IMG/VR virus record: IMGVR_UViG_3300025890_000061 | Coordinates: 1 to 35,601 of that record | From: a virus | Length of the DNA stretch: 35,601 bases | Strand: one strand, 5' to 3' | Position numbers and translations under genes: made by a program | Notes under the pieces: model-generated | The model's input: the letters and a program-made list of their open reading frames with translations, nothing else | The model's database searches: none | What the model was told of the DNA's origin: nothing | Shown: positions 3,633 through 35,479 of the stretch, piece by piece | Position numbering within the stretch: position 1 is the first letter of the stretch | Layout: every line of letters begins with the position of its first letter

Positions 3633-4325
3633 ATGATAAAAAAGTTTTTTATCCATATCCCAAAAAATGGTGGAATGAGTATTAGACGTAGTAATATTGC
3701 TAGACCTAAAGTAATGATTGCGACACCACAAACTCACAAAACTGGCGAATACACCCAAGCAGTTAGAAATAAAATGCAATCGCTTGGTGAGCATGATGGT
3801 TTTGAACACGCTAGATGGAGAGATATTAGCAAGGGTTTACAAGACAAAATGCAGTTTTTTGCGATTGTGCGAAATCCTTGGGATAGAGTTGTTTCTCGTT
3901 ATTTTTTTGCTAAAAAGGTTATTTACCTTGAAGAAAATTCAGATCATTATGGTGAGACTGAATATTCAGACTGCTCATCATTTGAGGCTTTTCTTGAGGA
4001 AAGGCATAAATGGGGTGGACATGAATATATGTGGCACAGAGCCATTCGCGGTTGGTATCCAGCAAAAGATTATGTAACTTGTGATAAAGGCATTATGCGT
4101 TGTGACATTTTACGACTTGAGCATTTAGATGAAGAAATATGTAAGTATTTAAATTTACCATTTATGACAGGCGCAAGAAATGTAACTGCTGTTAATGATA
4201 AGCGTTATCAAGACATATATACACCAGAAACAATTCAAATTGTTGCGGATTGGTACAAAGATGATATTGATCAGTGGGGTTTTGATTTTGATACTTCAGC
4301 GCAAAAAAACTATTGGGGAGAGTAA
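3633..4325 (+). CDS. Sulfotransferase family protein (PAPS-dependent)
   Basis: 230 residues with AAGGAAATAAA before ATG. The N-terminal IHIPKNGGMS (7-16) matches the 5'-phosphosulfate loop of Sulfotransfer_2 enzymes (usual form HIPKTGG). AIVRNPWDRVVSRYFF (77-92) matches the 3'-phosphate-binding block with Arg80 and Ser88. WHRAIRGWYP and a late KDDIDQWGF resemble the carbohydrate sulfotransferase C-terminus (usually YxxDFxxFGY). It would move sulfate from PAPS to a glycan or other acceptor. No PAPS-making genes are visible, so the host would supply the donor. Confidence 0.85.
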   Translation: MIKKFFIHIPKNGGMSIRRSNIARPKVMIATPQTHKTGEYTQAVRNKMQSLGEHDGFEHARWRDISKGLQDKMQFFAIVRNPWDRVVSRYFFAKKVIYLEENSDHYGETEYSDCSSFEAFLEERHKWGGHEYMWHRAIRGWYPAKDYVTCDKGIMRCDILRLEHLDEEICKYLNLPFMTGARNVTAVNDKRYQDIYTPETIQIVADWYKDDIDQWGFDFDTSAQKNYWGE

Positions 4326-4994
4326 ATGATAATAGGTATTGTGCCTATAGGTGGTATTGGAACAAGGCTAGGGCTGACATTTTCAAAAGAAATGTTACCT
4401 CAAAGAAATTATACATATTATAATCCAGTATCAAATCATTTAGTTTCAAAGATGATGGAAGCAGGTGCTGAAAAAATAATATTCATTCATGGTGATGAAT
4501 TAAAAAGAGATGTTACTTCTTTCTTTACCAATGATAAATTTATTCACATTTGTCAGAAAAAATCTGGTTTCGCAAATGTGCTATTTGAATTTTTAGACTA
4601 TAATCATACAACTGAAAATGATATATTGTTTTTTGGTATGCCTGATACTATTTTTGAAAATAATCCTTTTATTGAAATGGCTTCAATTAAAGGTGTAGTT
4701 GCTGGAACATTTAATACTGATGATGAGTCTAGAGTTGATAGATTAGAAAAAAACATGAAAACTTTTAGAGTTAAGACACAAATTGAGGATGATTTATTAG
4801 ACATATTTTGGGGAATACTAAAATTTGATGGTAAAGACTTAAAAGAAGCCTACAAACAAAATCTATTTGAAAAATATACTGAAGTGGGAGACATTGTAAA
4901 TTATTTGGGATTTAATATTGTTAAGGGTGGCAAATATATAGATTTAGGAACTTGGATTAATTATAATAGGTATTTGTCTAATGGTTATTATTAA
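4326..4994 (+). CDS. Sugar-phosphate nucleotidyltransferase-like protein
   Basis: 222 residues; GGGAGAG lies directly upstream of ATG 4326. PIGGIGTRLGLTFSKEMLP (7-25) is the signature loop of RmlA/GlmU-type nucleotidyltransferases (GGxGTRL plus a downstream KEMLP). GMPDTIF near residue 100 replaces the usual catalytic GD region. The chain is shorter than RmlA (about 290), lacking some of the C-terminal part. It would activate a sugar phosphate with NTP to feed the glycosyltransferases. A reduced or non-catalytic sensor role is possible given its shortness. Confidence 0.75.
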   Translation: MIIGIVPIGGIGTRLGLTFSKEMLPQRNYTYYNPVSNHLVSKMMEAGAEKIIFIHGDELKRDVTSFFTNDKFIHICQKKSGFANVLFEFLDYNHTTENDILFFGMPDTIFENNPFIEMASIKGVVAGTFNTDDESRVDRLEKNMKTFRVKTQIEDDLLDIFWGILKFDGKDLKEAYKQNLFEKYTEVGDIVNYLGFNIVKGGKYIDLGTWINYNRYLSNGYY

Positions 4995-6068: not shown

Positions 6069-6619
6069 TACTTGTTGATAAGGGTACAAAAATAAAAACA
6101 ACATTAGAATTTATAGATAATGTTAAAACTCTTCATGAAAAAGCAGGTGATTATGAGTCAATTAAAATATATTCAGCAATGGCAGACTGTTTAAAAGAAT
6201 GCGAATCTTACAGAGAACTTGGGACTCAGCAAGGAGCGAGTGCGGCTGTTGCTGCAAATTGTGGTATTAAAAGTATGGAACTTGTTGATATATCTTTTAA
6301 AAATTTTAGACCATGGGCATATTTATTTGATGATGTTGAATTATTTCTTTATGAAAGGTCTAGTATAAATTTTTCTAAAATTGAACTAAAAAATGTTGAT
6401 TTTTTATTGATTGATTCTTTACATAAACCCAATCACCTCAAAAAAGAATTAAATTTACATCATAATTCTGTAAATAAATATATTGCAATTCATGACACAA
6501 ATCAATTTAAAAATATGCAATATGAGGTAGAATTGTTTATAAAAAACAATAAGGAATGGGTATTGAGAGAATACTACACTAAAGGTGTTGGTTATTCTAT
6601 TATAGAGAGAGTGTTATAA
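6065..6619 (+). CDS. Methyltransferase-like protein (SAM fold)
   Basis: 184 residues. YRELGTQQGASAAVAAN (about 54-70) resembles motif I, MELVDIS the acidic end of strand 2, VDFLLIDSLHKPNHLKKEL (about 115-133) the motif IV/V area with Asp and a His, and KYIAIHDTNQF a strand ending in HDT. This order fits the CmcI/methyltransferase-24 type seen in the gene at 3008. It sits between a GT-B-like protein and the acyltransferase and overlaps both by 1-4 bases, so sugar methylation is a reasonable guess. Confidence 0.65.
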   Translation: MILVDKGTKIKTTLEFIDNVKTLHEKAGDYESIKIYSAMADCLKECESYRELGTQQGASAAVAANCGIKSMELVDISFKNFRPWAYLFDDVELFLYERSSINFSKIELKNVDFLLIDSLHKPNHLKKELNLHHNSVNKYIAIHDTNQFKNMQYEVELFIKNNKEWVLREYYTKGVGYSIIERVL

Positions 6620-7182
6620 TGAATAACATTCATCCTACAGCAATAATTAATTGGGATAATGTTACTATAGGAGATGGAAACAATATTGGTCCATATGTTT
6701 GTATTGGAACAGATGCCCAACACAAATCAGAGAATAGTAATGGGATAGTAGAGATTGGTGACGGTAATACATTTAGAGAATATGTCAGTGTTCATAGACC
6801 ATTAAACGGTATAACAAAAATAGGAAATAATAATTATATCATGTGTAATTCTCATATCGCCCATGACTGTGTACTTGAAAATGATATAAGTCTAACTGCA
6901 GGTGTTATTTTAACAGGTGGTGTCGTTGTAATGAATGGCGCGAATATAGGATCAGGTGCAACTGTACATCAAGGGCAGATTATAGGATCGTTTTCTATGA
7001 TAGGTATGAACTCTGTTGTCGTTAAGAAAAGTGATGTATTACCAGGAGAAATTTATGCTGGAGTTCCCATAAAAAATATAGGTAAAAACGTTATAGGTCT
7101 TGAGAGAAATAATATAGATAATGAACATCTTGAATCTGAAATAAAAAGATTTTATAAAATTAAAAATGGTCTTGAAAAATGA
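6619..7182 (+). CDS. LpxA-like hexapeptide acyltransferase
   Basis: 187 residues. Left-handed beta-helix hexads run through most of the chain (IHPTAII, VTIGDGNNIGPYVCIG, VEIGDGNTF). FREYVSVHRPL (52-62) parallels LpxA RESVTIHRGT, HIAHDC (79-84) is the LpxA catalytic block with the general-base His at 82, and VHQGQIIG (116-123) parallels VHQFCIIG. The late GLERNNI matches GLKRRGF. The C-terminal helical domain of LpxA (total about 262) is largely missing. LpxA acylates UDP-GlcNAc at O3 or, with an amino donor, at N3. The next two genes could supply that amine. An N-acetyltransferase of the WbpD/WlbB kind is the main alternative. Confidence 0.85.
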   Translation: MNNIHPTAIINWDNVTIGDGNNIGPYVCIGTDAQHKSENSNGIVEIGDGNTFREYVSVHRPLNGITKIGNNNYIMCNSHIAHDCVLENDISLTAGVILTGGVVVMNGANIGSGATVHQGQIIGSFSMIGMNSVVVKKSDVLPGEIYAGVPIKNIGKNVIGLERNNIDNEHLESEIKRFYKIKNGLEK

Positions 7183-8087
7183 TATTATTAGTTGGTTACG
7201 GGTATTGGGGAAAAAATCTAGCAAGAAATTTTTCAGATAAATTGACTGCAATTTGTGATAGTAATCCAGATTCTCTTAAAGAAGCAAAAAACAAATATCC
7301 TAATGTAGATATGTATCATGATTTGGATTCTGCTTTGAAAGATTCACGGATTGCTGCTGTAATAATTGCTACAAAAGCAAACACTCACTTTGAAGTTGCT
7401 GTTAAATGTCTTAAAGAAAAGAAACATATTTGGATAGAAAAACCAGTATGTGAAAAACTCAATGAAATTGACAGATTAATTGATCTGAGCGAAAATGTTA
7501 ATCGCATAATTTTTGTAGATCATACTTTCTGCTATAATCCCGCTATCATGTACCTTAAAAATTCAAAGGTTGTGGAATTTCCATTGTATTATAATAGTAA
7601 TAGAATGTCTCATGGGCAGTTTCAAAATGATGTTGATGTTGTCTTAGACTTAGCAATACATGATTTATCTATAATAAACTTTTTATATCCAAATTTAAAA
7701 TTAGATAAGCGTGAAATAATAAAGAATTATCATGTAAATAATATAGCGAACCAAGCATCAATTAATTTAAAGTTTAATAATGGGTTTAATGCTTTAATAA
7801 ATTGTAATTGGGTTTCTCCTATTAAAATTCGTGAAGTTATTATTGTTGGAAAAAATAAATCTATAGTATATGATGATATGTCTTCTGATAAAATTAGGGA
7901 GTATTCACACAAGGATGTTGATAGTAAATTTTCTCCAGCACATATGAAAGACATATATATTCCAAGAATACCTAATGATGAAAGTTTGTATAATGCCAGA
8001 AAACATTTTTTAAAATGTATAAAAGAAAACTTGAAACCAAAAACTAACATCTATGAATCTAAAAAAATTATGAGTTGGATATTATGA
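7179..8087 (+). CDS. Gfo/Idh/MocA-family sugar oxidoreductase (GnnA/WlbA-like)
   Basis: 302 residues. LLVGYGYWGKNLARNF (3-18) is a Rossmann NAD(P) loop (GxGxxG with Y at variable sites). IEKPV (86-90) carries the family lysine Lys88, and LDLAIHDLSIINF (156-168) the catalytic histidine region at about 161. These are the family's nucleotide- and substrate-binding blocks. It would oxidise a nucleotide sugar (C3 of a UDP-GlcNAc-type substrate if it acts with the DegT protein). ATGA overlaps on both sides place it in one operon with the acyltransferase and the aminotransferase. Substrate is inferred from context. Confidence 0.85.
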   Translation: MILLVGYGYWGKNLARNFSDKLTAICDSNPDSLKEAKNKYPNVDMYHDLDSALKDSRIAAVIIATKANTHFEVAVKCLKEKKHIWIEKPVCEKLNEIDRLIDLSENVNRIIFVDHTFCYNPAIMYLKNSKVVEFPLYYNSNRMSHGQFQNDVDVVLDLAIHDLSIINFLYPNLKLDKREIIKNYHVNNIANQASINLKFNNGFNALINCNWVSPIKIREVIIVGKNKSIVYDDMSSDKIREYSHKDVDSKFSPAHMKDIYIPRIPNDESLYNARKHFLKCIKENLKPKTNIYESKKIMSWIL

Positions 8088-9133
8088 TACCATATTATGA
8101 CTTAAAATCAATCCATTTAGGTGAAATTAATTCTATGAAAAAAGTCGCAAGTGAAGTTATTGAAAGTGGTAACTACATTTTTGCTACAGAAAAGTTTGAA
8201 GAAGAATTTGCAGACTTTGTTGGAGCGCGTTATTGTGTTGGTGTGAATAGTGGAACATCAGCATTACATTTAGCATTAATATCTTTAGGTATAAAGAAGG
8301 GTGACGAAGTTATAACTGTATCTCATACTTTTCGTGCTACAGTCGCTGCAATTAATTATGTTGGAGCAACGCCAGTTTTTATTGACATTGATCCAGAAAC
8401 ATTTCTTTTAGATGTTGATTTGGTTGAAGGTAAAATAACTTCAAAAACTAAAGCCATACTTCCAGTACATATGTATGGAAATGTTGTTAATATTGATGCG
8501 CTAAAAAGATTTAATTTACCAATATTAGAGGATTGTTCCCAAGCCCACGGTTCTTATCATAATAATAAACATGTTGGATCATCTGGTATAGGAACTTTTA
8601 GTTTTTATCCAGGAAAAGGTTTGGGTGCTTTAGGTGATTCTGGCTGTATAGTTGTAAATGATGAAGGTCAATACGATGAGTTAAAATCTCTAAGGTCATG
8701 GGATGATAAATCTATTGGTTTTAATTATAGAATGGATAATCTTCAAAGTGAATTTTTAAGAATAAAATTAAAAAATTTAAAGAATATTATTTCTGCGAAA
8801 AATATTATTGCAAGTAAATATAATAAATATTTTAAATATTCTAAAACTCATATAGATAACTATAACTCATACCACATATACCCTATTTTAGTAAAAAATA
8901 GAATTAAATTTTTCAATGAAATGAGAGATAAAATAGAACTAAAATGTCATTATGAAAATCCAGTTCATAAACAAACCCCATATAGAAAATTAATATTTTC
9001 CAAACCAAATATGTTTGAGTTGCCTGTGACTGAAAATATATCAAGTCATCAAGTCAGTATACCTATATACCCTACGGTAAATCATAATAAAGTTATAGAC
9101 TTAATAATGAATAATAAGGAATATCTACTTTGA
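8084..9133 (+). CDS. DegT/DnrJ/EryC1/StrS-family sugar aminotransferase (GnnB/WlbC-like)
   Basis: 349 residues from ATG 8084, which overlaps the upstream TGA; a TTG at 8075 is in frame but unlikely. NSGTSALHLAL (55-65) binds the PLP phosphate, EDCSQAHG (149-156) contains the Asp that contacts the PLP nitrogen, and FYPGKGLGALGD (174-185) carries Lys178 for the Schiff base. RSWDDKS and FNYRMDNLQSEF further on are also typical. It would transfer an amino group, usually from glutamate, to a ketosugar nucleotide made by the preceding oxidoreductase. The exact product is not determined. Confidence 0.9.
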   Translation: MIPYYDLKSIHLGEINSMKKVASEVIESGNYIFATEKFEEEFADFVGARYCVGVNSGTSALHLALISLGIKKGDEVITVSHTFRATVAAINYVGATPVFIDIDPETFLLDVDLVEGKITSKTKAILPVHMYGNVVNIDALKRFNLPILEDCSQAHGSYHNNKHVGSSGIGTFSFYPGKGLGALGDSGCIVVNDEGQYDELKSLRSWDDKSIGFNYRMDNLQSEFLRIKLKNLKNIISAKNIIASKYNKYFKYSKTHIDNYNSYHIYPILVKNRIKFFNEMRDKIELKCHYENPVHKQTPYRKLIFSKPNMFELPVTENISSHQVSIPIYPTVNHNKVIDLIMNNKEYLL

Positions 9134-9921
9134 TAACACTCGCACCCTTCTACAGAGATATTATTTCCGCAAGTCCCACTTTAAAAAAACATTTAAGTGC
9201 AAGAGAAAATTTTGATTATAGATTAACACTATCCAGAATGAAAGACACCTTTTTAAAATTTTCTGGAAAAAATGCAAAAGTTGTAGTACAATCAGACATG
9301 ATCACACCTTTTGAAAATTTTGAAGTTTTTAGAAGCGCGATTTCGGAACATTCATTGATGCAGTCTATAGTACAATCAAATACGAATTATATAAAGAATT
9401 GTGACTTGGGTAAACACGTTTTAGTGGGCGCAGATCATTTATTTATGGGTGATGGTAACATATTTTTTGAAGATGAGTATGATATTGGTTTATATGTGAG
9501 ATCAAATGCTAATGAACCAATTACAAGACAGATTAATAATACTGCTGTTTGTGTGAATATGAAAGTTAGTAATAAAAATGAAATAATTAATTTTTTCGTT
9601 GATAGAGAAAATGAGTATGATAAAAATACGCAATACCATGATTGGTATGGGGATCAACATAGTATTTTCTCCACACTACAGAGATATAATATAATTAACG
9701 AATATTGGTCTCATAAAAAATCTAAACAATTCTTTAATTATCAAGGCATTAAAATAAAACTTATGGAATACAACAAAGAATATTTGATGATATTAAATAG
9801 AAATGGTAAAATAGAATTTGATAAAAGTAAGGCAGTTATGTTAGATTTTAAAGGAGAAGATTTTCTTCAAAAAAAATATATTACGGACACTTACAAAAAT
9901 ATAATGGATGATAATCTATGA
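9130..9921 (+). CDS. Putative glycosyltransferase-like protein of the glycan cluster
   Basis: 263 residues with TTG start inside a TTGA overlap; no nearby in-frame ATG. HVLVGADHLFMGDGN (about 95-109) resembles a GT-A metal/donor strand, though the acidic pair is spaced differently from a plain DxD. NNTAVCVNMKVSNKNEI and YHDWYGDQHSIFSTL (about 166-185) resemble the acceptor-side blocks of the gene at 2229 (its WSTDQTLL). Family assignment is weak; a GT-A-like fold is the best reading. Context between aminotransferase and epimerase supports a glycan role. Confidence 0.5.
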   Translation: MITLAPFYRDIISASPTLKKHLSARENFDYRLTLSRMKDTFLKFSGKNAKVVVQSDMITPFENFEVFRSAISEHSLMQSIVQSNTNYIKNCDLGKHVLVGADHLFMGDGNIFFEDEYDIGLYVRSNANEPITRQINNTAVCVNMKVSNKNEIINFFVDRENEYDKNTQYHDWYGDQHSIFSTLQRYNIINEYWSHKKSKQFFNYQGIKIKLMEYNKEYLMILNRNGKIEFDKSKAVMLDFKGEDFLQKKYITDTYKNIMDDNL

Positions 9922-10856
9922 AAATATTCATTACAGGTATATCAGGATTCATTGGGTATCATCTTGCAAGAAAACTTTTTTCTCAAGGGCATCATGTATT
10001 AGGAATTGACTCATATAATGATTATTATGATGTTTCACTCAAAAGGTCTCGCGCTGCAAAACTTGATGATTTGGGGATTGAAACTTCTTATGGAGATTTA
10101 ACTTTAACTACATTCAAATCTGATTGGCATGATAAACTTGATGGTGTTGATGTTGTTATTCATTTAGCGGCATATGCTGGGGTTAGATATTCATTAGAGT
10201 TTCCTAAACTATATATCAACAATAATATAATTGGTACACAAAATCTAATTGATGCGTGTGAAAATTGGGGTATTGATAAAGTTCTTTATGCATCAACATC
10301 ATCTGTTATGAACGGTAATCCTATCCCTTGGGATGAGGATACCCAATTGCATACCCAAAAACACCCATATGGCTATTCAAAAGTGGTTAATGAGTCTCAA
10401 TTTGAAATGAGTAGTATTAAGAACACTATCGGAATGAGGTTCTTTACTGTCTATGGTCCATGGGGTAGGCCAGATATGGCACTCTTTGATTTTACAAAAA
10501 ATATTCTTGGGGGTAAGGAGATTACTGTATTCAATAATGGTGATATGGTTCGTGACTTCACATATATTGACGATATTGTAGATGGCGTAATAATTCTGTT
10601 AGCGCAAACTGGAAAAGATATATATAACATTGGAAGGGGTGAAAAGGTTCAACTTATGGACTTTGTTCATCAAATAGAATTACATTTGAATAGAAAAGCA
10701 ATAATAAAAATGGCTCCGATGCATTCAGCAGACGCAAAAGAAACTTGGAGTGATACATCTAAATTAAAAAGATTGGGATACTCTCCAGTAATATCAATTA
10801 CAGAAGGTGTGGGTAAATTTGTGTCGTGGTATAAAGATTATTATAAGGTGAATTAA
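9918..10856 (+). CDS. NAD-dependent epimerase, UDP-glucuronate 4-epimerase-like
   Basis: 312 residues. ITGISGFIGYHLARKL (5-20) is the extended SDR NAD loop. The catalytic pair is Y151-K155 (HPYGYSK), with STSSVMNG (127-134) supplying the Ser/Thr. RFFTVYGPWGRPDMALFDF and DMVRDFTYIDDI are close to CapI/LspL-type UDP-glucuronate 4-epimerases, which make UDP-galacturonate. A Ugd-like protein at 15866 could provide UDP-glucuronate. Epimerase versus dehydratase cannot be decided from motifs alone, but the PWGRPDM motif favours the former. It overlaps neighbours by 1-4 bases. Confidence 0.85.
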   Translation: MKIFITGISGFIGYHLARKLFSQGHHVLGIDSYNDYYDVSLKRSRAAKLDDLGIETSYGDLTLTTFKSDWHDKLDGVDVVIHLAAYAGVRYSLEFPKLYINNNIIGTQNLIDACENWGIDKVLYASTSSVMNGNPIPWDEDTQLHTQKHPYGYSKVVNESQFEMSSIKNTIGMRFFTVYGPWGRPDMALFDFTKNILGGKEITVFNNGDMVRDFTYIDDIVDGVIILLAQTGKDIYNIGRGEKVQLMDFVHQIELHLNRKAIIKMAPMHSADAKETWSDTSKLKRLGYSPVISITEGVGKFVSWYKDYYKVN

Positions 10857-11551
10857 TGAAAGCATATTGTATAACCCTAAAAGATGATAAACTAAGTGAA
10901 AACGGTTTTAACAAAGTATGGCAAAGTGCGAGAGAACTAAATTGTGATTTCTATGTAGAGAGATTTGATGCTACAAATGAAAAAAATGCTAATAGACAAT
11001 TAATTGATTGGGATTTATTTTGGAATTATCCATGGGAAGGTAAAGTCACTGATATTGCAACAGGTCTTACTAAATCTGCATATCCTACAGCGATCAAAGA
11101 AAGAAGAATTGCTTGTGCTATAAGTCATTTTAGATTATGGACGAAATGTTTTGAAATAAAAGAACCAATTCTTATATTGGAGCATGATGCCAAATTTGTT
11201 AAAAAATTAGATTATCAATATATTTTAGATTCAAAATATAAAGTAGTGGGTATAAATAATCCTATTGGTGCAACAAGACGCGCTAGACAATACCATGATA
11301 TTATTCAACGAAACCATAATCCGATTCAAGGAATACCTCATATTGACGAATGGAATATTCCGCAAGGTTTGGCGGGAAATTCTGCATATATTATTAAACC
11401 AGAGGGAGCCGAAAAACTCATATCAAATGTATTTAGTTATGGGCTTTGGCCTAATGACGCTATTATGTGTAAACAATTAGTTGATGATATGGGGGTTACT
11501 AAAATTTTCTATACTGAAGTTCAAGGTTTAAAATCAACAACAACTCAATAG
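10856..11551 (+). CDS. Glycosyltransferase family 25-like protein
   Basis: 231 residues. The opening MKAYCITLKDDKLS matches GT25 (LPS biosynthesis) proteins. IACAISHFRLWTKCFE (85-100) is the conserved SHxxxW block, and ILILEHDAKF (105-114) carries the E-x-D acidic motif at 109-111. NIPQGLAGNSAYIIKPEGAEKL and GLWPNDAIM follow as donor/acceptor blocks. The gene at 16639 has the same architecture, so the phage has two such enzymes. Probable role is transfer of a sugar to an LPS-like or fibre glycan. Confidence 0.8.
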   Translation: MKAYCITLKDDKLSENGFNKVWQSARELNCDFYVERFDATNEKNANRQLIDWDLFWNYPWEGKVTDIATGLTKSAYPTAIKERRIACAISHFRLWTKCFEIKEPILILEHDAKFVKKLDYQYILDSKYKVVGINNPIGATRRARQYHDIIQRNHNPIQGIPHIDEWNIPQGLAGNSAYIIKPEGAEKLISNVFSYGLWPNDAIMCKQLVDDMGVTKIFYTEVQGLKSTTTQ

Positions 11552-11561
11552 GTAAATTACA

Positions 11562-12275
11562 TTGAAAAAGATTGATATCTTTTATGCTGCTCTAAACGCA
11601 AAAAAATTTGAAAGATTAAATGATTTCTACTATTACTGTATAGATTATGCTAATAATGGTCTTGCTTTAGATATAGGGTCTGATAACTTTTTAGGTTTAA
11701 CAAAAAAATTATTAGAGAAGCAATGGTCTGAAGAAATTTGTGCATTTGATCTTCAAGATTTAAAAGAATATGATAATAAGGTTGAGTTTTATAGTGGCGA
11801 TGTTTTGGATACAATAACATCAGTTTTAGAAGATAAGAATAAAAAAATTTCTATTTTGGAGATAGATTTAAGAGAACCTACAATTTCTTTTAATAATACT
11901 TCTGATCTAAAGACAAGTAAATTAAATAAAGTATTGACTTTATGTAATGATTATTTGAACGATAATGTAGTGATTATAGTAAATGAATTTATGAATGATG
12001 AATGGGATAGTATAAATCCAGATGGGTATTTGTTAGCAGATTTTTTTGAAGAAAATAACAAATATTACGAATGTTTAGGATACTTACCATATAATTTGAA
12101 TGATAATGGTGAATTATTAGGTAACGAAGGTGCAACTGCTTGGGTTGTATCTGATGGTAAAAGTTTACAAGGAAACGATCTTAAAAATCTTATAAATCAA
12201 TTATGGACACATAGTCCATGTTCAAGATGCCAATCATTGGCACAATGTAATCAAGAAAGGTTAAAAATAAAATGA
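11562..12275 (+). CDS. Methyltransferase-like protein with Cys-rich tail
   Basis: 237 residues beginning at TTG 11562; AGG lies 9 bases upstream and no in-frame ATG is close by. GLALDIGSDNFLGLTKKLL (about 33-51), CAFDLQ, EFYSGDVLD and ISILEIDL follow the order of SAM-fold strands, so a class I methyltransferase is possible, although the glycine-rich loop is imperfect. The last residues contain CSRCQSLAQC, a possible metal-binding cluster. The stop overlaps the start of the BMP gene. Function stays tentative. Confidence 0.6.
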   Translation: MKKIDIFYAALNAKKFERLNDFYYYCIDYANNGLALDIGSDNFLGLTKKLLEKQWSEEICAFDLQDLKEYDNKVEFYSGDVLDTITSVLEDKNKKISILEIDLREPTISFNNTSDLKTSKLNKVLTLCNDYLNDNVVIIVNEFMNDEWDSINPDGYLLADFFEENNKYYECLGYLPYNLNDNGELLGNEGATAWVVSDGKSLQGNDLKNLINQLWTHSPCSRCQSLAQCNQERLKIK

Positions 12276-13327
12276 AAAAACTTTTAACAATCGTAGCAGC
12301 AGTAATGTTAGCGACAAGCGCATGGGCTGGGGATAAAGTTAAAGTAGGGTTCGTGTATGTCGGCCCAGTAGGTGATCATGGTTGGACGTATCGCCATGAT
12401 ATCGGTAGACAAGATGTAGAGGATCATTTTGGTGATCAAGTTGAAACAATGTATGTAGAAAGTGTCAGCGAAGGTCCAGATGCAGAAAGAGTTATTAACT
12501 CAATGGTTCTTCGCGGTGCTGATATTATTTTTACAACATCATTTGGATATATGGAAGCAACTGCAAAAATGGCAAAAAGATATCCTGATGTAAAGTTTGA
12601 ACATGCTACAGGATATAAGCAAGGGCCAAATATGTCAAGTTATGGTTTGAGATTGTATCAAGCGAGGCATGTGCAAGGTGTGATTGCTGGTATGATGACT
12701 AAAACAAATAAAATTTGTTATGTTGCAGCATATCCGATTCCAGAGGTTATTCGTGAAATCAACACTTATTATCTTGGAGCAAAAAGTGTAAATCCAGATG
12801 TTGATATTGATATTGTTTGGGTGAATACTTGGTATAATCCAGGAAAAGAATCTGATGCTGCAAAGGCTCTAATGTCGCAAGGATGTGATATGGTTGCACA
12901 ACATACCGACAGTCCTGCACCACTTCAAGCGGCAGAACAACAAGGGAAACTTGGTTTTGGTCAAGCATCTGATCAAAGTAAATTTGCACCAAAGGCACAA
13001 CTTACAGCAACTATTGATAATTGGTCGCCATATTATATTCGTAAGGTTGGTGCGGTAATTGATGGTACTTGGGAAAGTGAAGATTATTTTGGACATATGA
13101 ATGAAGATGTTGTTCAAATGGCTCCATTTACAAATATGCCAGATGATGTAAAAGCAAAGGCTCAAGAAATCAAAGATGCTATTTCTAATGGTGAATTCTT
13201 CGCTTTTACTGGACCTATATATGATAATGAAGGAAATCTTCAGTTAGCAGATGGGGAAGTTGCAACAGATATTCAACTTAACTCAATGAACTATTATGTT
13301 GAAGGAATTGATGCGAAAGTACCTTAA
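12272..13327 (+). CDS. BMP-family periplasmic substrate-binding protein
   Basis: 351 residues with a clear Sec signal peptide (KK at 2-3, hydrophobic 4-17, AWA before a predicted cut at 19/20; no lipobox Cys). KVKVGFVYVGPVGDHGWTY (22-40) and ADIIFTTSFGYMEATAKMA are characteristic of the BMP/PnrA-like basic-membrane-protein family, known as nucleoside or small-molecule receptors of ABC transporters. LYQARHVQGVIAGMM and NTYYLGAKSVNPDVDI are also typical. Length is close to the family norm and every core block is present, so it looks intact. No permease or ATPase is nearby: it would have to work with a host transporter. Overlap (ATGA) ties it to the glycan operon. Confidence 0.9.
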   Translation: MKKLLTIVAAVMLATSAWAGDKVKVGFVYVGPVGDHGWTYRHDIGRQDVEDHFGDQVETMYVESVSEGPDAERVINSMVLRGADIIFTTSFGYMEATAKMAKRYPDVKFEHATGYKQGPNMSSYGLRLYQARHVQGVIAGMMTKTNKICYVAAYPIPEVIREINTYYLGAKSVNPDVDIDIVWVNTWYNPGKESDAAKALMSQGCDMVAQHTDSPAPLQAAEQQGKLGFGQASDQSKFAPKAQLTATIDNWSPYYIRKVGAVIDGTWESEDYFGHMNEDVVQMAPFTNMPDDVKAKAQEIKDAISNGEFFAFTGPIYDNEGNLQLADGEVATDIQLNSMNYYVEGIDAKVP

Positions 13328-13962: not shown

Positions 13963-13989
13963 AAAATTGCTAAATACATCTAATGAGTT

Positions 13990-14016
13990 GAGGAAGCCTT
14001 GGCTTCCTCTTTTTTT
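13990..14016 (+). terminator. Rho-independent terminator
   Basis: GAGGAAGCC (13990-13998), loop TT, GGCTTCCTC (14001-14009), then a run of seven T (14010-14016). Perfect 9-bp G+C-containing stem plus U-tract. It would end transcription of the glycan/BMP/ClpP run; the next gene starts 16 bases later. Confidence 0.92.
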
Positions 14017-14032
14017 AAGAGAAAGAGAGAAA

Positions 14033-14860
14033 ATGACACAACTGATAAATCCAAAGAAATTTACTAACACTGTGGGGCGTTTACGCTCCTTTTTTTTGAA
14101 CAGAGGGTTTTTAGAAGTACATACGCAAAATAGATTAAGTATTTTAGCAGCATGTGAAGACCCAGAAAATGTAGCAAGTTATAATTATGAAGGTAATGTT
14201 TGGCCTTTACCCCAAACTGGGCAAATGTGGCTAGAACATGAATTATTATCTGATCCCTCTGCGAAGGGATTTTTTTGTGTCTCCACTTCATATAGACAAG
14301 AACCTAACGCAATTCAGGGTCGGCACGATACAATTTTTCCCATGTTTGAATTTGAAATGCCAGGAGATATAAATGATCTTAAAGTCATGGAAAGACAATT
14401 AGTAAGTCATTTAGGTTTTGACGATTGCACAGAGAAAACATATAGAGAATGGCAGCGACATTATGGTATTAGTGCGAATACAGAATTGGACGCCCAACAT
14501 GAATTAGCAATGCAAGCATCATTTGGTTCTTGTATGATTACAGACTTCCCAGAAATGACAAGCCCATTTTGGAATATGAGTCGCAATGAAGATGGAACTA
14601 GTAGAAAGATTGATGTTATCCTTGGGGGTATGGAAACTATTGGTAGTGCTGAACGCAGTACGGATAAAAATCAAATGAGAGATACATTTCATACAATTTC
14701 TAATGGAGAATATGCTGGACTTATTAAACATTTATTTGGGGATGAGAGAGTTGAAGCAGAACTTGAAAAGTTTCTTGAGTTTGATTTCTTTCCAAGAGTT
14801 GGTGGTGGTATAGGGTTGACACGAATGATATCTGCTCTAGAAACTCAAAAGAGTAACTAG
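14033..14860 (+). CDS. Class II aminoacyl-tRNA-synthetase-like catalytic core
   Basis: 275 residues from ATG 14033, preceded by GAGAAAGAGAGA; an in-frame upstream TTG is ruled out because it lies before the terminator. STSYRQEPNAIQGRHDTIFP (about 91-110) is a motif 2 with its Arg and the loop ending in MFEFE. FFPRVGGGIGLTRMISAL (about 254-271) is a motif 3 with the ATP-binding Arg. MITDFPEMTSPFWNM resembles the amino-acid-pocket area of Asp/Asn/Lys-type subclass IIb enzymes. No anticodon-binding domain is visible, as in AsnA- or EpmA-like relatives. It could act on a non-tRNA substrate or a protein. Specificity is unknown. Confidence 0.75.
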   Translation: MTQLINPKKFTNTVGRLRSFFLNRGFLEVHTQNRLSILAACEDPENVASYNYEGNVWPLPQTGQMWLEHELLSDPSAKGFFCVSTSYRQEPNAIQGRHDTIFPMFEFEMPGDINDLKVMERQLVSHLGFDDCTEKTYREWQRHYGISANTELDAQHELAMQASFGSCMITDFPEMTSPFWNMSRNEDGTSRKIDVILGGMETIGSAERSTDKNQMRDTFHTISNGEYAGLIKHLFGDERVEAELEKFLEFDFFPRVGGGIGLTRMISALETQKSN

Positions 14861-14993: not shown

Positions 14994-15857
14994 ATGATAC
15001 CAGTGATTGATTTAAATTCTTCATATGCAAATCAGCATATTGAGGATGCTTATACATCCGTAGGTTTTGCTGTTTTTACTAATGGTTTAACTCCAATTGA
15101 AAGGTCTGATATGATTAGTTGGTTTAGTGAAATGAAGGCATTTTTCAATTTACCAAATGATATAAAGAAAAAATATCCATATGAAGGTGATACTAATCTA
15201 GGTTATAGCATGGTAGGAGATGAAAATGTTGATCCAACCGCACCTAAAGACATTAAAGAATCTTTCAATTACAATAATACAAGGATGAGTGAACATCTTT
15301 GGCCTAAAGAATTACCAGGATTTAAAGCAACAGCATTGCAAAGTATTGATGTTGCAGATAAACTAACTCTTAGAATACTGAGTAGATTTGATGAAATTCT
15401 AAAATCTGGTACTACTCTTGTGGATGCTCATATGAAACCATTTAACACTACAAGAGTTATTCATTACCCAGCACACGATGGTCCAGTAGAAGATAAACAA
15501 ATGAGAATTGGTGAACATAGTGACTACGGAACCATTACACTACTTTGGCAAATAAACGATGTTCCAGGATTGCAAGTACAAGATTTAAAAGGTGAATGGC
15601 ATCCAGTGCCATATAATGTTGATGGTGTAGTTGTGAATATTGGCGATCTACTTCAAAGATGGACAAATGATTACTTTAAAAGCACAAAACACAGAGTAGT
15701 TAATTCACATATACATAAGACTAGATACAGTATGCCACATTTTGTTGATCCTACTCCGGGCACTATAGTTAAAAATCTAATGGGTCGTATGACTGATAAA
15801 TATGAGCCTATTGAGAGTAAAGAATATTTGATGTGGAGACTCGCACAAAGTTATTGA
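14994..15857 (+). CDS. Isopenicillin-N-synthase-like 2OG-Fe(II) oxygenase
   Basis: 287 residues. N-terminal MIPVIDLNSS is the DIOX_N pattern. Iron ligands are H175 and D177 (GEHSDYGTITLL) and H233 (STKHRVV), and the 2-oxoglutarate Arg is R244 in RYSMPHF (RxS). These are all in register for the plant-type/IPNS family, so the enzyme should be active on a small molecule or modified nucleotide. It overlaps the Ugd-like gene's upstream region and follows the odd tRNA. Substrate is unknown. Confidence 0.85.
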   Translation: MIPVIDLNSSYANQHIEDAYTSVGFAVFTNGLTPIERSDMISWFSEMKAFFNLPNDIKKKYPYEGDTNLGYSMVGDENVDPTAPKDIKESFNYNNTRMSEHLWPKELPGFKATALQSIDVADKLTLRILSRFDEILKSGTTLVDAHMKPFNTTRVIHYPAHDGPVEDKQMRIGEHSDYGTITLLWQINDVPGLQVQDLKGEWHPVPYNVDGVVVNIGDLLQRWTNDYFKSTKHRVVNSHIHKTRYSMPHFVDPTPGTIVKNLMGRMTDKYEPIESKEYLMWRLAQSY

Positions 15858-15865
15858 GGTATATT

Positions 15866-16642
15866 ATGAATTCTTTAGTACTATTAGGATATGGGTTTGT
15901 TGGTAAGGCAGTACATGACGTACTGAAAGATCACCACAATATTATTATTGTAGACCCACAATATTCAAACGACACGGTAGAAGATCAAGTTGGAAAAGAT
16001 GGTTACATAGTTTGCTTGCCCACCCCTCAAGGACAGTATGGTGAGTGTGACGTAAGTATTATTTTTGAAATGTTAAATAAAATTCCTGTTGTAGATGGTC
16101 AAGTCACAGAGGTTCTTATAAAATCTACTATATCAATAGAAGGTTGGAGAGAAATTGAAAAAGATAATACGCATTTAAATATATGTTTTTCTCCAGAGTT
16201 TTTAACTGCTGCAAACGCATCTGAAGATTTTAAAAATCAAGATAAAATGCTTTTCGGTGGCGGCAATGAAGATTTTTGGATTAATGTTTTTGAACCTTGC
16301 AAAAAGTTTGATGCAGTCCGATCATCAATTCCTGAACTCATCATAACTAAATATGTTAGAAATTCTTTCCTAGCAACAAAAGTCGCGTTTTTTAATGAAG
16401 TTTATGATCTTTGTGCTTCTTTGAATATCCAGTACGATGAAGTATCATATCTCGTAGGTATGGATGAAAGGATTGGATATTCACATATAAGTGTTCCAGG
16501 TCCAGATGGTGATAGAGGTTTTGGTGGTGCTTGTTTTCCAAAAGACACACTTGCTTTGCAGCATTCAGCGGAACGTAGGGATCAGCATCTTAATGTTTTA
16601 AATGCTGCAATTGCATCAAACAGAAATAAGAGAAAACTATGA
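15866..16642 (+). CDS. Short UDP-glucose/GDP-mannose dehydrogenase-like protein
   Basis: 258 residues from ATG 15866 (GAGG at 15856-15859; an in-frame GTG at 15833 lies inside the previous gene). LLGYGFVGKAV (6-16) is the NAD loop, SPEFL (109-113) holds the catalytic Glu111, ITKYVRN (160-166) Lys162 and Asn166, and GFGGACFPKD (218-227) the nucleophile Cys223. Family members are about 390-450 residues and have a C-terminal UDP-binding domain, which is missing here. Either a compact enzyme or one using another partner. It could supply UDP-glucuronate to the epimerase at 9918. Confidence 0.8.
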   Translation: MNSLVLLGYGFVGKAVHDVLKDHHNIIIVDPQYSNDTVEDQVGKDGYIVCLPTPQGQYGECDVSIIFEMLNKIPVVDGQVTEVLIKSTISIEGWREIEKDNTHLNICFSPEFLTAANASEDFKNQDKMLFGGGNEDFWINVFEPCKKFDAVRSSIPELIITKYVRNSFLATKVAFFNEVYDLCASLNIQYDEVSYLVGMDERIGYSHISVPGPDGDRGFGGACFPKDTLALQHSAERRDQHLNVLNAAIASNRNKRKL

Positions 16643-34582: not shown

Positions 34583-35479
34583 ATGTCTTTTGCAAATCTA
34601 AAACGTAATCGTGGTCAGATTGACCGATTAACTGCTGCCGCAACAGCAACAAATACCACTACAAAATCTTATGTGGATGAACGCATGTGGAAACCCACTG
34701 TTGATAAACAGAATAATGGTTATGCTGTTATTCGTTTCTTGCCAGATGGGAAAGAAGGTTCTGAAGTACATTTTGTACGATATTGGGATCATGCCTTTAA
34801 AGGTCCAACTGGTAAATGGTATATTGAGAAGTCTTTGACTTCAATTGAACAACAAGACCCAGTTGGTGAATACAATTCCAAACTTTGGAATAGTGGTATT
34901 GAATCTGATAAAGAAACAGCGCGGCGTCAAAAGCGGCGGCTGCATCATGTTTCAAATATTCTGGTAGTTTCTGATCCAGGAAATCCAGAAAATGAAGGCA
35001 AAGTTTTCATGTACCAATATGGTAAGAAAATCTTTGATAAACTTATGGATGCTTGGTCACCAGAGTTTGCAGATGAAACACCTATGAATCCATTTTGTAT
35101 GTGGGAAGGTGCGGATTTCAAACTCAAAATTCGTGATGTTGAAGGTTATCGTAATTATGATAAATCTGAATTTGCTGCATCACGCGCAGTATCGGATAGT
35201 GATGAACGCTTGGAAGAAGTGTATGACAAGTGTCATGATCTTTCAGAGTTTACTGATCCAGAAAACTATAAGTCGTATGCAGAACTAGAGACTAAAATGC
35301 GGAATGTTCTTGGTCAAACTGCACCTCAACCAACAATGGCACAAACTGCTTCAATGGGTGAGGAAAAGGCTTCGGCATTGGATGATAATATTCCAGACTT
35401 CGCCACGCCTAAAAAGACAGAAGTAGAAGGCGAAGATAATACTATGGATTACTTCGCAAGTCTAGTTAACGAAGACTAA
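34583..35479 (+). CDS. 32: gp32 single-stranded DNA-binding protein
   Basis: 298 residues. LKRNRGQIDRLTAAATATNT at the start is the basic LAST-type cooperative region. WKPTVDKQNNGYAVIRFLPD, then VHFVRYWDHAFKGPTGKWYI and VSNILVVSDPGNPENEGKVF, YQYGKKIFDKLMDAW follow the T4 gp32 core. The zinc ligands of T4 gp32 are replaced (region with CPVCQY in T4 reads DPVGEY here), as in cyanophage relatives. The acidic tail (EVEGEDNTMDYFASLVNED) binds replication partners. Own early promoter. Confidence 0.95.
   Translation: MSFANLKRNRGQIDRLTAAATATNTTTKSYVDERMWKPTVDKQNNGYAVIRFLPDGKEGSEVHFVRYWDHAFKGPTGKWYIEKSLTSIEQQDPVGEYNSKLWNSGIESDKETARRQKRRLHHVSNILVVSDPGNPENEGKVFMYQYGKKIFDKLMDAWSPEFADETPMNPFCMWEGADFKLKIRDVEGYRNYDKSEFAASRAVSDSDERLEEVYDKCHDLSEFTDPENYKSYAELETKMRNVLGQTAPQPTMAQTASMGEEKASALDDNIPDFATPKKTEVEGEDNTMDYFASLVNED

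Follow-up and report, generated by a model that had tools for sequence, protein, structure and literature searches.

A probable phage amino-sugar cassette in which an LpxA-like gene occupies an exchangeable, probable N-acylation slot

Do three overlapping phage genes, arranged in the order of bacterial lpxA, gnnA, and gnnB, remodel host lipid A, or do they make a different N-acylated sugar? The genes lie in a 35.6-kb virus record (hereafter the window, meaning the whole stretch of DNA analyzed), which we assign to a marine T4-like phage because its gp32-like protein (34583–35479) resembles, at ∼52% identity, the gp32 of Methylophilales and, equally, Pelagibacter myoviruses. A sequence-only reading had favored lipid A remodeling, with a WbpB/E/D-type N-acetyl sugar as the alternative. 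Its account of the genes themselves holds: all three frames are open, run in the order acyltransferase, Gfo/Idh/MocA oxidoreductase, and DegT aminotransferase (frame ending at 9133), and give highly significant family matches. They sit within a long run of glycan genes, and the features discussed here are as follows:

4326–4994, plus strand: weakly nucleotidyltransferase-like protein (GalU/RmlA-like N terminus, E = 2e-4)
6619–7182, plus strand: short LpxA-like left-handed β-helix N-acyltransferase, probably an N-acetyltransferase, 187 aa (profiles, PDB match, alignment, tree)
7179–8087, plus strand: Gfo/Idh/MocA oxidoreductase, 302 aa, probable UDP-sugar 3-dehydrogenase with GnnA/WbpB/MMP0352-like chemistry (best NCBIfam match, motifs)
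8084–9133, plus strand: DegT/DnrJ/EryC1/StrS PLP aminotransferase, probable C-3 aminotransferase (PF01041, PDB relatives)
9130–9921, plus strand: conserved fourth gene, predicted GT-A glycosyltransferase with a retaining GT6/GT8-like fold (co-conservation, AlphaFold, Foldseek)
9918–10856, plus strand: NAD-dependent nucleotide-sugar epimerase/dehydratase (PF01370, E = 7e-48)
10856–11551, plus strand: family 25 glycosyltransferase of the LPS biosynthesis type (PF01755, E = 7e-14)
15833–16642, plus strand: nucleotide-sugar 6-dehydrogenase, short form without the C-terminal domain (PF00984/PF03721)

The genes of the trio overlap by 4 bases or 1 base, and because such ATGA/TAATG junctions join them, ATG 8084 is a likelier start for the DegT gene than the mechanically called TTG 8075. 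The epimerase/dehydratase may belong to the same sugar pathway or to another one. The same cassette recurs at ∼100% identity in two further viral contigs (L002 and L003). Among the 50,697 annotated phage records searched, there was neither a close copy of the trio nor a close match to the Gfo–DegT pair; the best Gfo match there was 21% identical, and no acyltransferase match exceeded 33% identity. The same glycan cluster includes a sulfotransferase-like gene (3633–4325, PF03567), so that a sulfated glycan is possible. Farther downstream, 12272–13327 encodes a periplasmic substrate-binding protein of the PnrA/Bmp family, apparently preceded by a signal peptide, for which 60 Pelagibacteraceae genomes gave no match at E ≤ 1e-40, and 13967–14860 encodes a class II aminoacyl-tRNA-synthetase-like protein, as judged from reading its sequence only.

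The product of 6619–7182 is, by sequence comparison, LpxA-like but not LpxA. It matches the LpxA family TIGR01852 (E = 8e-36), and its closest curated families are LpxA, yet the scores (123.6 bits versus a cut-off of 231.05, and 133.5 versus 226) are about half the equivalog cut-off and lie below the membership threshold. The C-terminal helical domain of LpxA (PF13720) reaches 16.9 bits against a threshold of 24.5, and in the alignment 9 residues follow E. coli LpxA position 219, compared with 46–48 in SAR11 LpxA; the loss of this domain, which had been noticed earlier, is thus confirmed, as is the HIAHDC motif at residues 79–84. His82 of this motif corresponds to the catalytic His125 of E. 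coli LpxA, and LpxA His160, Gln161, and Asn198 are also kept. Position 173, which we take to be an acyl-ruler position that helps set acyl length, is Met in the window protein and in the rows for other phages, SAR11 short proteins, and 8e62-like proteins. The spacer from position 173 to 198 measures 28 residues in 8e62, the window protein, the other phage rows, and the SAR11 short rows, but 26 in each genuine LpxA, and this two-residue insertion is common to nearly all proteins of the short clade. Exceptions are two more remote 8e62-like rows, with spacers of 24 and 30 residues, and L038, a 263-aa protein from Heimdallarchaeota whose spacer is 26 residues long although the tree places it on the short side. 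Modeled with AlphaFold, the acyltransferase came out as a poor solenoid (pLDDT 72); a fold search with this model returned no significant match, and the model was left unused.

In a tree of 50 proteins, for which the E. coli LpxA sequence was checked against 1lxa, a split with support of 96/98 parts all genuine LpxA proteins from a set of mostly short proteins that holds the window protein. The LpxA side contains proteins of E. coli, Leptospira, SAR11, and Dependentiae, the last encoded just before a Gfo gene, while the short side contains the window protein, its phage relatives, the SAR11 short proteins, and PDB 8e62. The sequence-only reading had looked to the LpxA clade for support, and the protein lies outside it. 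Its best PDB sequence match is 8e62 (Pcryo_0615; E = 2.7e-26, 38% identity), whose role we take from its title: “an N-acetyltransferase required to produce Diacetamido-2,3-...”. The window protein shares with Pcryo_0615 the short form, Met173, the 28-residue spacer, and the side of the tree. Identity with WlbB/WbpD was also considered for 6619–7182 and was rejected, WlbB (3mqg) being absent from its PDB matches at E ≤ 0.001.

The closest bacterial relatives, at 42–52% identity, are from Pelagibacteraceae, where the short protein adjoins glycosyltransferases; most of the loci that extend far enough to judge also have a Gfo gene beside it, and in two SAR11 loci (L036 and L126) a DegT gene is next to it or near it. 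Short LpxA-like genes are linked to both Gfo and DegT genes in these two loci, in the window, and in viral contigs L133 and L146. In one Gammaproteobacterium, a relative is flanked by rmlA/rmlB on one side and FdtA-like/DegT genes on the other, neighbors that we named by inspecting their sequences; this is where operons for dTDP-3-acetamido sugars have their C-3 N-acetyltransferase. An automatic pipeline would probably label the short proteins of the SAR11 glycan loci (L028–L037 and L125–L127) as LpxA. Tailed-phage contigs L004–L027 carry, set among head and tail genes, a short LpxA-like gene (e.g., L020:7935–8546) and two other nonstructural genes without Gfo or DegT, so that the substrate may vary; there it must come from elsewhere.

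For the two remaining enzymes of the trio, GnnA/GnnB-type chemistry on a UDP-GlcNAc-type substrate is plausible. The oxidoreductase matches Gfo/Idh PF01408 (E = 2.9e-21), and its best NCBIfam family is UDP-GlcNAc 3-dehydrogenase (E = 1.2e-34); the score, 120 bits, is far below the equivalog cut-off of 450, which makes the substrate uncertain. Its motifs EKP and DLAIHD are invariant among the phage relatives. The aminotransferase matches PF01041 strongly (E = 4.1e-86, 289.9 bits), with its PLP lysine at Lys178 in FYPGKGLGA (alignment numbering), and its PDB relatives include QdtB and WbpE.

The relatives of this pair point to what the acyltransferase does. Viral contigs were searched with the Gfo and DegT alignments, and thus without selection for an acyl gene. 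Many viral loci share the same core of Gfo, DegT, and a gene of the 9130 type, and at or just upstream of Gfo the slot is held by a hexapeptide N-acetyltransferase of 139–150 aa in 17 distinct loci, by a formyltransferase (PF00551) in 5, and by a short LpxA-like protein in 3 (the window family, L133, and L146; L157 repeats the L133 protein and is not distinct). In several of the N-acetyltransferase loci another gene, usually methyltransferase-like, separates the acyl gene from Gfo. The best PDB matches of the hexapeptide proteins are WxcM-like and N-acetyltransferase entries. The core tree requires the slot to have changed at least three times, with some deep forks open and the three LpxA-slot rows long-branched, and more distant cassettes (L161–L164) likewise alternate N-acetyltransferase and formyltransferase. 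At least three N-acyl modules, the LpxA-like gene among them, occur interchangeably with this core across related viral genomes. Because such acetyl- and formyltransferases act on sugar amines, the slot is most simply explained as N-acylation of the amine made by the Gfo and DegT enzymes. Sugar N-formyltransferase-like genes in amino-sugar cassettes are themselves phage-borne at L163:4954–5580 and L148:3252–4010.

The fourth gene, 9130–9921, is co-conserved with the Gfo–DegT pair in these contigs. Its AlphaFold model is confident (pLDDT 89.9), and in Foldseek it matches α-1,3-galactosyltransferase and glycogenin (both at E ∼1e-6 to 1e-7) as well as viral glycosyltransferases, from which we predict a GT-A glycosyltransferase. 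With such a fold in its fourth protein, the cassette probably both makes and transfers a sugar.

GnnA/GnnB chemistry is summarized in PMC5644692, and the steps of the Wbp pathway are given in PMC10622841. In the reading we favor, the Gfo enzyme would oxidize a UDP-sugar at C-3, with UDP-GlcNAc the likeliest substrate and UDP-GlcNAcA a possible one; the DegT enzyme would replace the C-3 ketone with an amine; and the product of 6619–7182 would acylate this amine with His82 as general base, acetyl-CoA being the likeliest donor. The GT-A protein would then move the 3-acetamido sugar onto a surface glycan or protein, of the host or of the virion. Three things suggest the acetyl donor: the C-terminal domain is lacking, residue 173 is Met, and the protein resembles Pcryo_0615. 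That the missing domain means a donor different from that of LpxA, namely acetyl-CoA, is plausible, and the LpxA-like module might even add some acyl group that is not acetyl. Taken as a whole, the scheme is in our judgment likely to be right: by Wbp-type chemistry the cassette would make UDP-GlcNAc3NAc or the corresponding uronic acid, and this sugar would go onto a surface glycan or a protein. Counting against it are the low Gfo score, the modest 38% identity to Pcryo_0615, the short LpxA-like genes that stand apart from Gfo and DegT in L004–L027, the methyltransferase-like gene that intervenes in several N-acetyltransferase loci, and the poor acyltransferase model.

How do other explanations compare? 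In a true LpxA–GnnA–GnnB set, UDP-GlcNAc3N would be made, a 3-hydroxyacyl group added, and host lipid A shifted to amide linkage. The gene order agrees with this, as do the closest curated families, LpxA (124–134 bits) and UDP-GlcNAc 3-dehydrogenase, and the retained LpxA residues His125, His160, Gln161, and Asn198. However, the acyltransferase is outside the clade of E. coli, Leptospira, and Dependentiae LpxA–Gfo proteins, lacks the C-terminal domain, and has Met at the acyl-ruler position together with the diagnostic insertion, both shared with the clade that contains the N-acetyltransferase, and acetyl- and formyltransferases take its slot in relatives. Among 247 sampled Pelagibacteraceae genomes, moreover, only 4 have a match at the level of the short paralog, most matching at the level of full-length LpxA, and one genome (G003) carries both. 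Lipid A remodeling, the reading first preferred, is accordingly very improbable. A lipid A operon was rejected on the absent C-terminal domain and on the fact that no lpx gene was recognized within the 35.6 kb. The alternative, a WbpB/E/D-type N-acetyl sugar, finds support in Pcryo_0615 as nearest solved relative and in the exchange with N-acetyl- and N-formyltransferases.

Within that preferred explanation, a narrower form has a uronic acid as product, either UDP-GlcNAc3NAcA or the manno epimer of it, made by the full Wbp pathway with the phage 6-dehydrogenase as WbpA. We keep this variant because a short 6-dehydrogenase abuts the LpxA-like gene in L133/L157, though it scores as the UDP-glucose type rather than as UDP-GlcNAc/ManNAc types; one also lies near the core in L057 and L135, and Pcryo_0615 belongs, by its title, to a diacetamido-2,3-dideoxy sugar pathway. 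In the window, however, the dehydrogenase at 15833 likewise scores best to UDP-glucose types and is 6.7 kb from the trio, most core loci have none nearby, and no WbpI-type epimerase was recognized, so that we hold the uronic acid possible but on balance doubtful. Use of another sugar by Gfo and DegT (UDP-glucose, a dTDP sugar, or the kind of sugar phosphate used to make kanosamine), with the LpxA-like enzyme acetylating that, would fit the weak Gfo substrate scores and the gammaproteobacterial relative among dTDP-sugar genes. It is unlikely, given that the top Gfo family is UDP-GlcNAc 3-dehydrogenase, that NtdA-type kanosamine aminotransferases score far below QdtB and WbpE against the DegT protein, and that the equivalent of the uridine-site Asn198 is kept.

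The favored 3-acetamido sugar cassette is of a kind already known; what is new is that a phage carries an LpxA-like module and that N-acyl modules are exchanged. Pcryo_0615 of Psychrobacter cryohalolentis has the same short LpxA-like helix without the C-terminal domain, whereas the window protein, 38% identical to it, is phage-encoded in a cassette of overlapping Gfo, DegT, and phage GT-A genes. WbpB/WbpE/WbpD of the UDP-GlcNAc3NAcA pathway likewise bring together an oxidoreductase, a DegT aminotransferase, and an N-acyltransferase, and sister phages fill the slot with an ordinary hexapeptide N-acetyltransferase; the window acyltransferase, in contrast, is LpxA-like rather than WbpD-like, and the window has no adjacent UDP-GlcNAc 6-dehydrogenase or 2-epimerase. 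LpxA with GnnA/GnnB shares the gene order, the likely 3-oxidation and transamination, and the catalytic His, and differs in clade, C-terminal domain, acyl-ruler residue, and the company of lipid A genes, none of which was recognized in the window. Marine T4-like phages, such as cyanophages, have glycan-gene clusters with nucleotide-sugar and glycosyltransferase genes, from which this core with an exchangeable acetyl, LpxA-like, or formyl module differs.

What looked like a phage LpxA and lipid A remodeling is thus an annotation trap that becomes a testable glycan pathway, and short LpxA-like proteins in glycan loci, those of SAR11 included, should not be named LpxA. We lean, by a narrow balance, toward the view that marine T4-like phages keep a fixed 3-dehydrogenase/aminotransferase/glycosyltransferase core and repeatedly swap its N-acyl module among hexapeptide acetyl-, LpxA-like, and formyltransferases, such that one swap would alter the sugar chemistry of the host or virion surface, a change comparable to bacterial serotype switching. 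One phage core paired with acetyl-, LpxA-like, or formyltransferases forms a natural series, which lets the roles of phage-made sugars be asked, including receptor masking, superinfection exclusion, and virion glycosylation.
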